Part shown: positions 51,672-61,500 of the stretch, piece by piece
Layout: every line of letters begins with the position of its first letter
Numbering within the stretch: the stretch's first letter is position 1
From: Arabidopsis thaliana
Lineage: Eukaryota; Streptophyta; Magnoliopsida; Brassicales; Brassicaceae
Assembly: GCF_000001735.4 (NCBI RefSeq)
Contig: NC_003076.8
Coordinates: 1,054,001 to 1,118,000, forward strand
DNA length: 64,000 nt
Direction of reading: 5' to 3'
Notes under the pieces: model-generated
Databases searched by the model: none
What the model was told of the DNA's origin: nothing
The model's input: the letters and a program-made list of their open reading frames with translations, nothing else
Program-made: the position numbers and the translations under genes

Positions 51672-53629
51672 CTAATTGCTTCGGAAGTTTTCGTAACTGA
51701 AGCCTGATGATATGGTCCTCAATCTTTCGTGGTCTCCTGCAAGAGAAAGCACTTGTGGTTACCATTCACTCTTTTATTTTTCTGCAAGACTTACTGGTGT
51801 CTCTAGTTCCTGAATGATTCAGCTTTAAGTTTTTCCCATTATAGCTGAGATGAGCCAAACACTCCATGAAATCTATTGAACTAGAGAAATAAAAGAAGGT
51901 CAACAAAGCTTCAAGTGCTCACCTTGATGTTCTACCCTTTCGCTAGAGTCCAGGAAATTTTCAGCATCAGCCAATAGGAACGGTGATCCCTCGTAGCTCT
52001 CCAGAATATCTGGTATTAACAAACAATTTACGTATAAAAAAAAAGAAAAACAACGAATCCTAAATTCTCAATGCCAAAACTGCAGTTGCTGTGCGAGTTT
52101 ATGCACAAGTGTCTGCTTAATATGTGTGCGAAGGAAAAAGGGAGACCATGTATGAAAATAATACCTGAACTCTGGGAAAAATCAGCTGTCAGATCAGAGA
52201 GGCTGAAGTTCTGAGGAATTTGTCCTAACGAGCCAAATGTAGGAGCATCTGGATCGACAAGAGGATCATTCAGGGATTGGTTGCTGGAATCATTGCTGAA
52301 AGATGCGATGGTGACATCTCCAACTGTGGACTGTGCTTCACCACCATACATGTATGGAGCACAGTTTTGATATGCAGTCTCAGACTTGATCATTCCTTGC
52401 ATCAAAGGCATATTTGTGGCCTGCAAGGAGAGCGAGTTTGGTGAAGGATCAACTCTTCTAGAATGGGATGAAAAGTCCACATAAGAAGGTATATTTGTGT
52501 TAATTGCTGAGCCTCCATTGAGGTATGGACTTGACAGATTAGGAGAGGATTGATCTGGTTCCTTGCGTTCATAGAGTAATTGTTGCTGATTCACTGTTGA
52601 AAGAAATGACGTTAGTTGCAACATGAAAACCTCTTCACAACTCATTACTTCCATGCAGTATCCAACAAGTAAAACATAAAAAGCCTCAAAACAGTAAAAA
52701 GTCTTTGGACTCATTAAGCTTTAACAGAGGGATGCGTGAATCAGTGAAACAAGACGCTCAATGCTTCAAACAGATGATCTAGGTCTATCTAAATGATTCT
52801 AAGAGACAACAATTATGTATCACTAGAAAATACAAATCCACAGGAAAAAACTCGAACTAGTTCCAAAACATATCTTACTTGGTGGAACATGAGAACCATT
52901 CCTGTTTCGAACAGAAGCCCCTGCAGTTGGATGCATCTGGCGCATGTGGTTTATCTGCTGCTCAAGCAGTTCGTTATATTCCATTATCTGGTGCTTCACC
53001 ATGAGCCTCAGATAATATGCCTTGAAAAATTCGCGGTTCTCTTCTTCAAGCTTCTGCCAAACTGTCAACTCAGAAGGAAAATATACAATCATAATGATCT
53101 ACTAGAGACAAATAAGTTCAACCTTCATATATCTAGTTGCTAATATCAACCACGATCTATGATTTTTAAATAATATTCTTCCAAAGTGGTTCAAACCAAT
53201 ACAAGCTAACAAGTCAGACTTGGTCTAAGAATTATCCAATCAGGTTCAAAAAAATCCAGGAAGTGTGGAGGTTACCTAGTTCTGTAAAACCAGGTTCGAT
53301 CTTAGCCTGTTCTAGAAGAGTGTCAACAACTTCTTTCTGGTTCATGTAAAGCTGGAGGCATCGTTCAATTAGATTCTGAACCTGCAAAGAAACAAGGACA
53401 GGCCAGAAAGAATAGTATGTCACATATTCTAAAGAGGTTTACACACAAAAGCTGAAGGCCTTCCTTAATAATTCCAATGCACAGGTGAAGAGAAACACAC
53501 AAAAAAAAAGAGAAGATCTCATGGCTAACAAAATTATTTCCTTTCACTGATTCAACGCATCCCTCTGTAACAAAATTATACCAGTTGTATATCTTCGCGC
53601 GATACCCTTCTCACTGTTAAACTTGACAT
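51672..53629 (-). CDS. Plant-specific protein of unknown function (A_thal_3526 / 'plant protein 1589' type)
   Basis: Six coding exons: 53629-53582, 53381-53276, 53061-52879, 52593-52165, 52009-51923, 51736-51672; 305 aa. The N-terminus MSSLTVRRVSREDIQL then VQNLIERCLQLYM, VVDTLLEQAKIEPGFTELVW and EENREFFKAYYLRL is the conserved block I know as a plant-only uncharacterised domain. It is helical and is followed by a coiled-coil-like stretch (IMEYNELLEQQINHM). The remaining two thirds are Ser/Asn-rich and disordered-looking, with acidic short motifs (DPLVDPDAPTF). No enzymatic residue is evident. A leader intron is likely: exon 54220-ish ends TTGG/GTAGGG, acceptor gacag at about 53660. Its first coding exon is duplicated in GYRB3. 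Confidence 0.88.
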
Positions 53630-54350
53630 GGGTGAAATATCTGTAGAAGCGATCCTGTTCCTGTCAGAAGAAGTACGCATCTAACTCCTGTCAGAATAAC
53701 AAACTCAAAAATGTACTTAACTGATAAAGCATACAATTAAGACACAAAAATACCAAGCATTTAACATACTAATCTCCTATTAAACTGAGCTTCAAATTAG
53801 AAGCCATAACCCATAAGACATCAATATTCAACATATTTAATACAACATTGAATATATATTTTTTTTGCGATAAAGAGAATAACAAGAGCTAACAAAATCG
53901 AATTAGTCGACATAGACCAAAAAAAAAAGAATCCAACAGAGGAAGATGGATTTAAGAGCAGGAGCTTATAAAATTCGAAACCCATAAACTTTTCCAAGAA
54001 TTCGTAATTAATTTCTTGTTTAACGAAAGCTGGATCAAATCAAATCCTATTAACCAACCATCAACTCAAATAAAATCGAATAAAACACACAAAAGGGGCG
54101 AGAAAACCAACAGATTAACAGAAACCGGAAACAGGAAAAAAGAATTTTAAGAAAAATCGAGACAAAAAAAAAAACAAAGGTCATAGTAGAAGAAGCGATC
54201 AGAGAAACCCTACCCAAGAAACCTCAAGACTCGAATCAGAAAGCAAATCGTCCGATAGAGAAAGTGGAAACCTTTTTTTTTCTTTTTTTTTTTCTCTTCT
54301 CAGTGTATTTAATTTAATTTTAATATTTGCGGAATTGCAAAAGAGAATCT
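53630..54350. other. Leader and 5'-UTR intron of the 305-aa protein gene
   Basis: The minus-strand leader begins near 54290 after a poly-A/G tract; a donor (GG/GTAGGG) lies at about 54215, and an acceptor (tgacag) about 30 bases before the ATG. The intron between is AT-rich. Confidence 0.45.
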
Positions 54351-56756: not shown

Positions 56757-59700
56757 TCATCCTGCTAAGAAATCGTCATAGTGGTCATCATCGCTATCGA
56801 TATTGTTAGCAGCGGAAGACTTAAGCAATCTCATGCGTTTGATGAGGAAAACATTGTAGTAGTAACTGAGCAGATCCTTCTTACTTTTTTGGGGGAAGGC
56901 ATTAGAAGCAAATTCCCAAAATCCATCACTACTTGACAAAGGATTCTTTTTCACAAGAGCTTCAAACCTTCGCTCTTCTTTGGCCGTCCACGACTTTAAC
57001 ACTATTTCTTCACCCATTTGATCAAATTCCCATGTAGAGAAAGCACGGTTAATTTCCTTTTCCAAAAGCTCCTGTGCTTCTTTCTTGTGTCGTTTTATGC
57101 AATTGGTTGACCTCGGAGAAGCACAAGAACAAGAGTCGGATCTTCCTTCGCCAACTTTTTTGGAGTGAACTGTCTTCTTTAGGCTATATGTTGGCCAAAC
57201 ACCAGTTCCAAGCCATCTTAGAGTATTGGAATCTCCAGGGCTACCGTAGAATTTTCCCTTCTTGGTAGGGGCAATCCAAACCGGTATTTCAGCTTGGAAC
57301 CTTGGACCGATCGGGATAGCTGGTCTTGTTTTATTGGACCCATGGGTTATTACATCTTTGGACGTCTTGTTGCTAACATCTTTATTGGACCCATGGGTTA
57401 CATCTTTGGGAGTCTTGTTGCTAACATCTTTAGGGCTTGGTGAGTTTGCATCATCAGCAGATTGTCGTGAAGAAAAACAGAGATGCGAGGACGAAACAGA
57501 AGACTTGGGTTTCTTGCTTTTCTTCTCAAAACTTGAACCACTAGTATTCTCTGAAGACTCTCCTGGAGCTGTAGAGACTGCATCATCACTCCAAGGCTGT
57601 TCCCATGTCCTTTTGTTCTGGCAAGAGATAAAGATACCTGTCAGAGCCACCCAGACAATGTCTTTTGGCTGGTAAAGAGGACTCTTTGGCACTGGCATGC
57701 CATAAGGAGTCACCAGTTTCTGTTTTCGTCCAATCTTTTACATGATTTTCTGACAAACTCTTGCGAGCTGTCCCAACTCTACTTAAATAAAGTGTATAAA
57801 ATCCAAAAGTATGGTTGTTTTCAAGCATCCACACGCTTGGAGACATAAAAGCGCTGCCTTATTGCCTAGATATAAACTAAATCTATAGTCAAAGAATGTA
57901 TTACCTTGAAACACCTGTCAGAGTCGTGTTTTGCAGCACCACCAGAAGAAACTCCTCTACCTATAAAAGTTTCTGGAGGCATTGGGAAAGAGTTTTAATT
58001 AAAACTATCTTGTTTTCTTTTTCTACTTCTCATAATAAATGTACGAGATCGAATCTCTAGCCACTATATTATAGAGTAACTTCAACGTTTTATTCAGAGT
58101 TTTTTATTGGCACCGTGTATATGGTTCGTGTTGGCCATAGGGAAATACTCGTGGTGGTGACTAGGCTCCAAGAGGAGTTTCCTACAAGTCCACCACGGGT
58201 AAACCACTGGCTCAAAGACCCAGTGATGATATGGTTCAAGAATATTGTTTACACCTGTGGGGAAAAACAACGGACTATCTGAATTTACAGCATAGCCGCC
58301 GGTTTCTCCTACCACACGACTAACACATGCAGTTTTTTTTATCATGTTATATGTACCAATATTTAATCAAATAGAGCTCCTTTTCTGACTTAAGTTCAAA
58401 AGACATACCAGATGTTTCAGAAGAAGAGTTGGTCAGTTTCATAGGAATGGACTCAATGGCACACACCATTGCTACACTTTCTGAACTATACACATCCCTT
58501 GCCCTCTTGACAGCCAAATCAGTCTAAAAAGAGAAAGAGTCGCCATGTATATTTTCGTGTTCATTAAATTGAAAGTAAGAAAGCAACATGTAGAACACAA
58601 CAGTGTAAATGAAGATACAGCAGTATCAATAGGTATAGAAACAGCATACCTTGTAAGCGTTATAGGATTTGGACATAATGCTCTCGAATACATCTGGATG
58701 CAATTCAAAAGACTCCATTAAGCACTCCTGGACTGATTGGTCAACAATTTCCCTGACATTTGGATTTCCTAATCTCTTCTTGCAGATATTAAGAGAGAAA
58801 ATATCAGTGCAAATAATCGAAGAAAGTGGGAAAATATCACTGCTTGCAAACAGATAAGAATGCCAAAGAGGAGGATTAACAATCACTATGATCTTGTGTA
58901 CCTGTGTTTGACCTTCAAACTCAGGTTTTGGAACAATGACTGAGACAATGCAAGTCAGTCCTTCCATAACATGCTCCTCAGTAAAGATAATATCCTTGTC
59001 CTGGACAGAATCAACAACAATAAATTTCACCATCAGTTATACAAAACACTGGAAACGCCTCCCTGACACTGGTAACATTAAATGCCCAAACGGGAAAGAA
59101 AGCTGTAAACTCTTCTATTGTTAGGTGCTGAAATTTTTTACAGCAAAGTCTACTATGCTGCAGATATGAAACTATTCAAATTCGGTTCAGTCTGTGAAGA
59201 GTGGGGTATATTGGCAAATTGAATGCAGCTTTTCGTGAAAATATGATGCATGGCAAAAAATGTTCGAAACCTCATATATAGCGAAATAAAAAGCGTTTCA
59301 TAGACAAAACTTGGTCAGTGATGTCGACTGGTCTTATACCTCAACAAGCTTCGACTTCTCCACAAGGCTGTTCAGAGTTCTTGTTATTGACGCTTTCACA
59401 CCATCTATGTATGTTCCACCATCCATGGTGCGGATGCCATTGGCGTATCCCAGAATTTTGTTTGAATATCCATCTACGCACCTGGTACAACAACAAGACA
59501 ACAAAACTGGGATCAGATCAATAGAATTTTGTTCAGAGTAACTACAACATCCACATACATAAACATACAATAGTACAAAAAGGGCCATACCATTGAAGCG
59601 CAATGTTTATGGTGGTACCATTTATCTCTTTTCTAAATCCCAGCACATCGTGAAGCGGTTTCTGAAGAGGTGCAGTCAGTTTGTATTTTTCAAAATAACA

Positions 59701-60112
59701 GATAGCTTGAAGTTATGTAAGGAAGAAAACTAATGATACTGCCGCATTGCATTTTGGCATCGTCCGACATACAAAAGCTTGACAGGCTTGCTACAACCAA
59801 AATAAAATAGTTGTGGAGGCAAACTCTCACCTTATCAGCATTTAGCCAAGTAACAAATTCACTTAAGCCTTTAGCATACAAATATTCTTTATTCGGATCA
59901 TTATCCTCCATTTCCAAAGAAACTGTAATCTGCACACGCTGTAAAATATAGACCACTCAGTAAAGCAATCTCTGTCCCATTCAAAAGAATCATCATGAAC
60001 ATACAAAAACCAAACCCTTGAAAAATTCAAACAAACATAAGAATTGATTTGATGATCTTACCAGTTTAATATCTTGCAGTGGTGATACCCTCTTCACAGT
60101 TCCACTGTACAT
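56757..60112 (-). CDS. GYRB3: Chimeric GyrB-transducer / SANT-like protein (GYRB3)
   Basis: Ten exons: 60112-60062, 59938-59831, 59661-59591, 59481-59340, 59000-58902, 58778-58650, 58523-58409, 58254-58114, 57960-57905, 57719-56757; 624 aa in frame (577 if the poorly conserved eighth exon is skipped, also in frame). Residues about 18-230 match the transducer part of plastid/mitochondrial gyrase B ([72 protein letters not shown]). The GHKL ATP site and the TOPRIM domain are missing, so it cannot be a gyrase subunit. The C-terminal exon ([24 protein letters not shown], then [14 protein letters not shown]) is a plant ELM2/SANT-like chromatin module. I recall published work saying it is not a gyrase. 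Exon 1 is shared with the neighbour at 53582-53629. Confidence 0.85.
57326..57440 (-). repeat. In-frame tandem repeat inside the last GYRB3 exon
   Basis: The encoded protein has adjacent related units: [16 protein letters not shown], then [17 protein letters not shown], then a partial NKTRP. At DNA level gacccatgggtta and gttgctaacatcttt recur. This hydrophilic linker precedes the [11 protein letters not shown] block; its copy number is likely to vary between accessions. Confidence 0.8.
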
Positions 60113-61500
60113 TGCTGAAACTTACGAAACAGATGTTTGTTCCTGGCAGGAAGAAGAAGCAGTAGAATAAGGTTGAGACACAAAAACATAAAAAAAAGTA
60201 TGTAACACGAACAAGAACAGAACCACAAAACAATTATACTCCATTACATCAATCAGACAAGAAATGCAATGCAAGACAACCCTGACACCAAAGATGATGC
60301 AGAAACAACAACATCCAGATGAAGCAATTAATGAGTAAAACCAGCAACAAGAACCCGGTTACTAGTAATGTCTTTAGGTTAGAACACAGTTACTAGTAAC
60401 GTCTTTAGGTTACTAAATATGTATAAAAAGCATCTGATAATCAATCATTTGGCGAAAATCAGGTAAAATAAAACTCCAGATCATCAAAAACTCGGTGATA
60501 GAAAGAATGAAATTGAAACCAGTCATGTTGATTTTCTGGGGAAAACAAAATCAAAATCACAACCAAAAATGTATAGACAAACAGAACCAATTCAAAATTG
60601 AATTCTGAAAATGGATCAAAATCGATTTCTAACAAAGAGCAGAACGACAAATTCGTTATTTAGACAAAACTAAGAGAAAAATTACGAGAGACCCTATCGG
60701 TATCATCATAAGCTCCTTAATCGAATCCGGAGTATACGCGAGAAAATCTCAAAATCGTTAGAGAGAGAGAATTTTAGAAAAGAAAAGAAAAAATCTAACC
60801 TTACTTTTTTAAGAACCATCAGCGATAATCATCACTCTTATGAATTAAAGGGTGTGTCCATTTCCCAGAAAATTTATGAAACAGTCAGTTATTTATACGG
60901 AGAAACATTGAATATATGAGGACCACATAACCAAAAACTCTGAACGATTATAAAAAAAAAAACTCATTTTACAAAATGTTTTGTATTGCATCAAAATATA
61001 GATTCAAAAATTCTAAATATTCATTTGGAAAAATATACAATTTTAACTTTATACTCATCGTAAAACCTTATATATATATATAAACTTATAAACAATTATT
61101 ACCGACTTGGAGAAAATATTGTTAAGATCTAAGAAATATTCTAGGTTTGATGAATATTAGAAAATCATGATCTCCTAGTGAATGTTTTCTATGGATTATC
61201 TAATAAAAAGGATTTATTCATAATTATCTTTACTTAAAATATTAATCTATTAATGCTTAATTGCCAAAAAATTAATGTCATATTTGTTACACAAGAAGGA
61301 AAATCCTCTATTATCAGAGTTTTTCTAAAAAACTTATGGAAGAAAGAATAAGTGGGGTAAAAAAATCATAAAGGAAATTCTTAAATTGTGAGAAACCATG
61401 GAAATCAAAGAGCATATGAATGATCCTAAAAAAAGCATGTAAAAAACTATATGCAGATGAAAAACAAACAATAAAGAGTGTTATTGTGTCAATGTATTAT
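60113..61500. other. GYRB3 leader and AT-rich upstream DNA
   Basis: An acceptor (tgccag, about 60150) just before the ATG implies a leader intron; leader sequence may start near 60830. A 25-bp imperfect direct repeat (gttactagtaaNgtctttaggtta-like) lies at about 60356-60415. Beyond that no gene is seen. Confidence 0.4.

Follow-up and report, generated by a model that had tools for sequence, protein, structure and literature searches.

Patchwork structure of Arabidopsis GYRB3 and its probable origin from PF09713, gyrase B and ARID1-type exons

Background

GYRB3 (At5g04110) of Arabidopsis thaliana shares with GYRB1 and GYRB2 the transducer exons, the intron positions and one TOPRIM exon, which has become a relic in GYRB3. 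Unlike these two genes, GYRB3 has no transit peptide, GHKL ATPase, working TOPRIM domain or tail, and the lysine that contacts ATP is a glutamine. No gyrase activity is on record in the sections of PMC2845627 that deal with GYRB3: the protein shows neither supercoiling with E. coli GyrA nor binding to it on a column, it fails to complement gyrB, and it gives no two-hybrid signal with AtGyrA or with itself. In the same sections, expression is described as highest in stamens and pollen, the protein is predicted to be nuclear, and a fusion of the transducer with the DNA-binding domain of a transcription factor is proposed, as early as 2010 (PMC2845627). A table in a 2019 review still lists the gene as 'DNA gyrase B3' (PMC6843274, table entry). 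The patchwork origin proposed here would account for a gene so labeled, and ARID1 and HDA8 offer a function that can be tested.

The end of GYRB3 resembles ARID1 (At2g46040) and an ARID-ELM2 gene on Chr4, both of which have an ELM2-SANT region in a single last exon. According to the passages of PMC4109846 on this protein, ARID1 is a pollen-specific protein that binds HDA8, with an important contribution of its ELM2 domain to the binding. ARID1 and GYRB3 are thus both reported in pollen, at least in the parts of the two papers cited here. In contrast to ARID1 and the Chr4 gene, GYRB3 has no ARID domain and carries a gyrase transducer in front; the identity in the shared region is about 35-42%. 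The MTA1-type co-repressors also possess the ELM2 core (G...xQA.I) followed by SANT, and a profile built from six plant sequences matches both. The MTA1 ELM2-SANT structure is the first match of this profile in the PDB, although the similarity is weak (E 3.5e-5).

The beginning of GYRB3 resembles that of two PF09713 (A_thal_3526) genes, namely its neighbor on Chr5 and the Chr3 paralogue of this neighbor. The 5'UTR, the splice sites and the first 17 codons are common to all three, whereas the PF09713 domain, which is encoded from exon 2 onward, is missing from GYRB3. We take PF09713 to correspond to TIGR01589. In rice, short TIGR01589 members act as repressors of GLK factors; what the long members do is termed obscure in the pertinent text of PMC13292954. 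The PF09713 leader, the TOPRIM relic and the ARID1-type end of GYRB3 appear to be new in the open-licence literature searched.

Structure of the gene

The window analyzed is a 64-kb stretch of A. thaliana Chr5 (contig C5, 1054001-1118000), in which the gene occupies positions 60142-56757 on the minus strand (Table 1). Eight of the nine published At5g04110 primers considered here map within or just upstream of this gene, which is therefore A. thaliana GYRB3; the remaining one, a 5' RACE primer, has no match in the window. Of the RACE primers, the 5' one that could be located maps to exon 3 (59598-59619), and those for 3' RACE fall in the last exon. GYRB3 is provisionally treated as one transcript on the basis of RACE at each of the two ends, as described in the relevant part of PMC2845627.

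Table 1. Exons of GYRB3 and the homologous first exon of the neighboring gene (window positions)
Feature	Position	Strand	Remarks
Leader and exon 1	60062..60142	(-)	30 bases of 5'UTR and 51 coding bases; source, by homology, exon 1 of a PF09713 (A_thal_3526) gene
Exon 2, start of gyrase B transducer	59831..59938	(-)	
Exon 3, transducer	59591..59661	(-)	boundaries as in GYRB1/2
Exon 4, transducer	59340..59481	(-)	boundaries as in GYRB1/2
Exon 5, transducer	58902..59000	(-)	ends QTQ; QTK in GYRB1/2
Exon 6, end of transducer	58650..58778	(-)	
Exon 7	58409..58523	(-)	degenerate counterpart of the GYRB linker exon (transducer-TOPRIM)
Relic of first TOPRIM exon	57905..57972	(-)	EGDSA motif gone; splice sites and frame intact
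Last exon	56757..57734	(-)	about 108 residues without assigned homologue, then ARID1-type ELM2-SANT
Candidate acceptors of last exon	57734, 57719 or 57691		
Homologous leader and exon 1 of local PF09713 gene	53582..53660	(-)	PF09713 domain in the following exons

When all exons of the ancestral structure are joined, including the TOPRIM relic, the frame is still open and encodes 586 residues (65.4 kDa). This 65-kDa product does not match the size of 61 kDa that is given in print (PMC2845627). A product of about 61 kDa can be obtained from several splice combinations. The acceptor of exon 2 apparently lies before 59938, 9 bases upstream of the ancestral GYRB acceptor (59929), and adds the residues RVQ. 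The residue numbering used in the cited portion of PMC2845627 (Gln157) agrees with this upstream acceptor.

The gyrase-derived part

Judging by the exon comparison, the middle of GYRB3 is a DNA-level genomic copy of GYRB that starts with the transducer exons and reaches the first TOPRIM exon or beyond. Exons 2-7 and the relic correspond to consecutive exons of GYRB1/2, and the splice positions are kept at all seven; a preliminary description of this DNA had noted a gyrase B transducer following exon 1 and had proposed that common intron positions be looked for. The transducer is recognized by Pfam PF00204 with an E value of 2.8e-51 over positions 1-172 of the 173 in the profile. In the PDB it finds 26 sequences at E values up to 0.001, which are named gyrase B, GyrB or topoisomerase IV. 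A remark quoted in PMC2845627, according to which GYRB3 aligns with eukaryotic topoisomerase II, was considered and set aside, as none of these 26 sequences is so named.

The relic exon matches GYRB1 with an E value of 2e-6 and GYRB2 with 7e-6 (7.6e-7 to GYRB2 at the DNA level). It reads GRGVSSGG where GYRB has EGDSAGG, and there is thus no working TOPRIM (EGDSA motif) in GYRB3. The exons of GYRB2 downstream of the relic found no match in GYRB3. The relic does not figure in the account given in the cited sections of PMC2845627, which state that residues 185-465 match nothing. At the other end, the GHKL ATPase and the transit peptide are absent and the PF09713-type exon 1 directly precedes the transducer, with which the 5' RACE in the same sections agrees (PMC2845627). 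The earlier statement that GYRB3 lacks the ATPase and TOPRIM parts is therefore correct for the ATPase; since a degenerate first TOPRIM exon is present, it is true of the working TOPRIM domain and not of the DNA. In exon 5, the change of QTK to QTQ replaces the ATP-contacting lysine, equivalent to K337 of E. coli GyrB in the residue correspondence quoted from PMC2845627, by glutamine.

The Nei-Gojobori dS is 0.59 between GYRB1 and GYRB3 and 0.52 between GYRB2 and GYRB3 (237 codons each), and 0.57 between GYRB1 and GYRB2 (244 codons). GYRB3 is about equidistant from the two genes and therefore arose near their split, an estimate made within one genome, that of A. thaliana. The true GYRB2 gene does lie just outside the window, at C5:1122-1127k, as had been stated, but the derivation of the transducer from GYRB2 was not upheld. 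There are 86 sites that separate GYRB1 from GYRB2: GYRB3 has the GYRB1 state at 32 of them and the GYRB2 state at 37, and shares neither at 17; with counts so nearly equal, assignment of the gyrase piece to one or the other was rejected.

In a codon model of three sequences and 183 codons, the omega of the transducer is 0.59 on the GYRB3 branch and 0.096 for GYRB1/2. The difference gives a 2dlnL of 19.0, and the comparison of the GYRB3 value with an omega of 1 gives 2.4, which is not significant. For exon 7 and the relic (61 codons) omega is 0.96, as if neutral. These values imply loose, possibly almost absent, constraint on the transducer and drift of exon 7 and the relic. If the sequence were neutral, the probability of finding it free of stops, with stops alone counted and frameshifts disregarded, would be 0.013-0.096 for the transducer and 0.0005-0.011 for the 325 codons of the last exon (d from 0.27 to 0.12 in both cases).

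The leader and the first exon

The coding part of GYRB3 exon 1 runs from the ATG at 60112 to a final CTG codon ending at 60062, followed by the donor GTAAGA. The first exon of the local PF09713 gene (MSSLTVRRVSREDIQL) runs from the ATG at 53629 to a CTG ending at 53582, with the donor GTATAA. The acceptor CTG(C/A)CAG/GAACA precedes both, the ATG is found 30 and 31 bases in, respectively, and both exons end in phase 0. All these common features had been pointed out beforehand, and the likeness of the two exons has proved to be real. Local alignment of the 116 bases 60165-60050 (match 1, mismatch -1) yields a score of 30 with the local PF09713 exon and of 43 with its Chr3 paralogue. None of 2000 first-order Markov sequences per target attains these scores (maxima 17 for the local and 19 for the Chr3 exon), and neither does any of 5056 real 116-base stretches of the window, taken from both strands with the two exons excluded (maximum 18). 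The match spans the splice acceptor, the 5'UTR, the coding start and the donor. The non-coding acceptor and 5'UTR alone are also above chance, with a score reached by 0 of 2000 nulls for Chr3 and by 3 of 2000 for the local gene.

The closest match is the Chr3 copy and not the local gene (72% over 119 bases, E 1.8e-8). Of 48 coding bases compared, 38 are identical between GYRB3 and the Chr3 copy, 35 between GYRB3 and the local copy, and 41 between the Chr3 and local copies. The Chr3 copy could be nearer because the local copy has changed more. When these 116 bases were compared with the whole genome at the DNA level, the query found nothing but itself; the method used scores just the best candidates and missed the Chr3 match too. 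A genome search for PF09713 gave 27 matched places, several of which are second exons of the same genes. Exon 1 was looked up in 14 of 20 excised PF09713 loci with flanks of 1.5 kb; it is clear in two, the Chr3/Chr5 pair, partial in two and not seen in ten, and at least one further member (C5:9924863) lies outside this set. No PF09713 domain is present in GYRB3; the common part is exon 1 alone, upstream of the domain. On this homology, exon 1 and the leader of GYRB3 are derived from the PF09713 gene of this block.

The similarity does not extend detectably into the adjoining DNA. Intron 1 of GYRB3 aligned with GYRB1, GYRB2 and the PF09713 genes of Chr3 and Chr5 gives scores that 315, 303, 695 and 880 of 1000 nulls reach. 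An alignment of this intron with the GYRB intron, plausible by eye, was rejected on these ordinary scores. Upstream of GYRB3, 9 of 100 nulls reach the score with the Chr3 PF09713 gene, and 70 of 100 reach that with the local one. The positive controls are themselves barely significant (0 of 1000 for the GYRB1/2 intron, 2 of 1000 for the PF09713 intron pair, 0 of 100 for the upstream pair), and for this reason the power of both the intron and the promoter tests is low. Of the supposed duplication of promoter, leader and first exon, the leader and first exon are supported, and the promoter is not detectable.

The last exon

The final approximately 190 residues of the last exon match five other places in the genome, the best being a gene on Chr4 (42%), which carries an ARID domain (E 2e-15). 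In a tree of six sequences, the GYRB3 end groups with the Chr4 ARID gene and ARID1 with support of 100/99; the branches of these three are long and their order is not resolved. The identity of the Chr2 locus, At2g46040, with ARID1 is supported by the antibody peptide quoted in the cited part of PMC4109846, which occurs in this locus. The Pfam ELM2 and Myb matches of GYRB3 fall under the curated cut-offs, as do those of the Chr4 relative, and Pfam finds no ARID domain in the GYRB3 pieces. In ARID1 and the Chr4 gene, the single last exon follows a phase-0 intron. The GYRB3 exon shares this phase with a start at 57734 or 57719, but not with one at 57691. By its relationships, the last exon of GYRB3 represents the exon that encodes ELM2-SANT in an ARID1-type gene, which makes the initial assignment to a SANT-like chromatin domain more precise.

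A tandem repeat with a 48-base unit (2.1 copies, matching at 90%) occupies 57330-57432 in the linker of the last exon and doubles the peptide KDVSNKT(P/S)KDV(I)THGSNK.

Origin and function

Along the direction of transcription, the order on Chr5 is GYRB2, GYRB3 and the PF09713 gene, all on the same strand, with a histidine-phosphatase gene on the opposite strand between GYRB2 and GYRB3 (L017:2460-3602). On Chr3 the order is GYRB1, a reticulon gene (L019:1400-2530) and the PF09713 gene. These loci belong to a collinear segment (94 kb of Chr5, 90 kb of Chr3) in which four anchor clusters besides GYRB3 are arranged alike in order and orientation; within the window, no Chr5/Chr3 anchor cluster falls in the first 45 kb. 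We assume that this segment stems from the alpha whole-genome duplication. The split of GYRB1 and GYRB2 belongs to it, and GYRB3 is an extra gene between the PF09713 gene and GYRB2.

The most plausible history of GYRB3, to which we assign a probability of about 0.62, is that a PF09713 start, a GYRB middle and an ARID1-type ELM2-SANT end were joined within introns, the first join most likely by a tandem duplication, and that the product is a nuclear adaptor for histone deacetylases. A single tandem duplication near the time of the GYRB1/GYRB2 separation would have joined intron 1 of the PF09713 gene to the GYRB intron that precedes the transducer. Since both introns are in phase 0, such a duplication yields an in-frame product in this order in one step, and it would explain the position of the chimera, which has a parent on either side, all three on one strand. 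The end of the relic exon and the introns of the ARID genes are in phase 0 as well. A second shuffle may have brought in the ELM2-SANT exon, which stands in the place of the rest of TOPRIM and the tail of GYRB. As neither intron 1 nor the upstream region has homology to either parent beyond chance, the breakpoint itself is not visible. The three sources named in the preliminary description are borne out, each piece being assigned by homology, and its phrase 'mainly local pieces' fits two of the three; the SANT part has its nearest relatives on Chr4 and Chr2.

Several observations count against this account, the invisible breakpoint among them. With an order like that on Chr3, the duplication would have copied the reticulon gene as well, and no trace of it was detected on Chr5: in the DNA that separates GYRB2 from the PF09713 gene, the best E value for a reticulon relic (0.083) falls inside the range of the best values of 20 Markov versions (0.003-0.43), and this candidate was rejected. 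Exon 1 has its closer match in the Chr3 copy, not in the local gene. The omega of the transducer on the GYRB3 branch is not significantly below 1, the printed 61 kDa disagrees with the full ancestral exon structure, and three insertion lines show no visible phenotype.

As exon 1 occupies the place of the GYRB transit peptide and ATPase, the GYRB3 protein is no longer a gyrase and probably works in the nucleus. The ELM2-SANT end would most likely do the work, as in ARID1, and the transducer may be a loosely constrained spacer or an interaction surface. We presume that the Chr1 and Chr2 genes related to the last exon are among the proteins SANT1-4. In the passages cited from PMC10808059, which deals with SANT1-4, plant SANT-family proteins are required for HDA6 at genes. 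Together with the binding of HDA8 by ARID1, these data suggest, by analogy, that GYRB3 is an adaptor of the ELM2-SANT type for a histone deacetylase of the male gametophyte, with its site of action in stamen and pollen. Against this, no deacetylase is found among the three named two-hybrid partners in the relevant section of PMC2845627. It is even conceivable, although rather doubtful, that the tandem duplication and the second shuffle moved a domain of an endosymbiont enzyme from organelle to nucleus and made it a chromatin adaptor that is a rival or partner of ARID1 for the deacetylase in the male gametophyte. On the preferred history, GYRB3 would be a roughly dated example of an organellar bacterial-type domain that is re-used outside gyrase via exon shuffling; its donor exons are still recognizable, a parent lies on either side, and the discarded domain is visible as a relic.

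The pieces might alternatively have been collected by a transposable element, in a capture of the Helitron or Pack-MULE type. The presence in one gene of three sources, one of them on other chromosomes, would fit such a capture, as would a dispersed repeat that takes up about 90 bases of the leader region (60290-60420). A capture does not, however, predict a chimera between two local parents on the same strand, and the introns and exon order of GYRB are retained, which leaves this route quite improbable beside the tandem duplication. That the first-exon likeness arose by convergence or chance can practically be dismissed. The match is short, about 100 bases, and the genome-wide search with 116 bases gave only itself, though by a method restricted to the best candidates; the nulls (0 of 2000 and 0 of 5056), with non-coding bases included, refute chance at this level.

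GYRB3 might also be a decaying chimera that is transcribed into a protein of little or no function, with frames that are open by chance or recency. The omega of the transducer, which is indistinguishable from 1, and that of the linker exon and relic are what decay would produce, and the three insertion lines described in the cited sections of PMC2845627 have no visible phenotype. An age close to that of the GYRB1/2 split, the low probabilities that neutral sequence would stay stop-free, particularly in the last exon, and the expression in stamens and pollen reported in the same paper speak against it, and we consider decay unlikely, though it has to be taken seriously. A role for GYRB3 as a degenerate gyrase regulator, with gyrase or topoisomerase in organelles as its continuing target, is very improbable. 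The transducer has retained its similarity, but the transit peptide is absent, the ATP lysine is replaced by glutamine, and the assays given in PMC2845627 for GYRB3 detect neither GyrA binding nor self-interaction.

Repeats and other features of the locus

Exon 7 and the TOPRIM relic are separated by a longer intron in GYRB3 than in GYRB1/2. An open stretch within this intron, at 58095-58281 (-), gave no convincing match elsewhere in the genome (best E 0.06). The dispersed repeat of the leader region, on the minus strand, recurs at C4:4791356 (87%) and at C2:4020379 and C5:24798226 (78% each). A 31-base part of it is tandemly doubled at 60350-60412, and the C2 copy adjoins a fragment that resembles the C-terminus of a 14-3-3 protein (E 1.8e-8).
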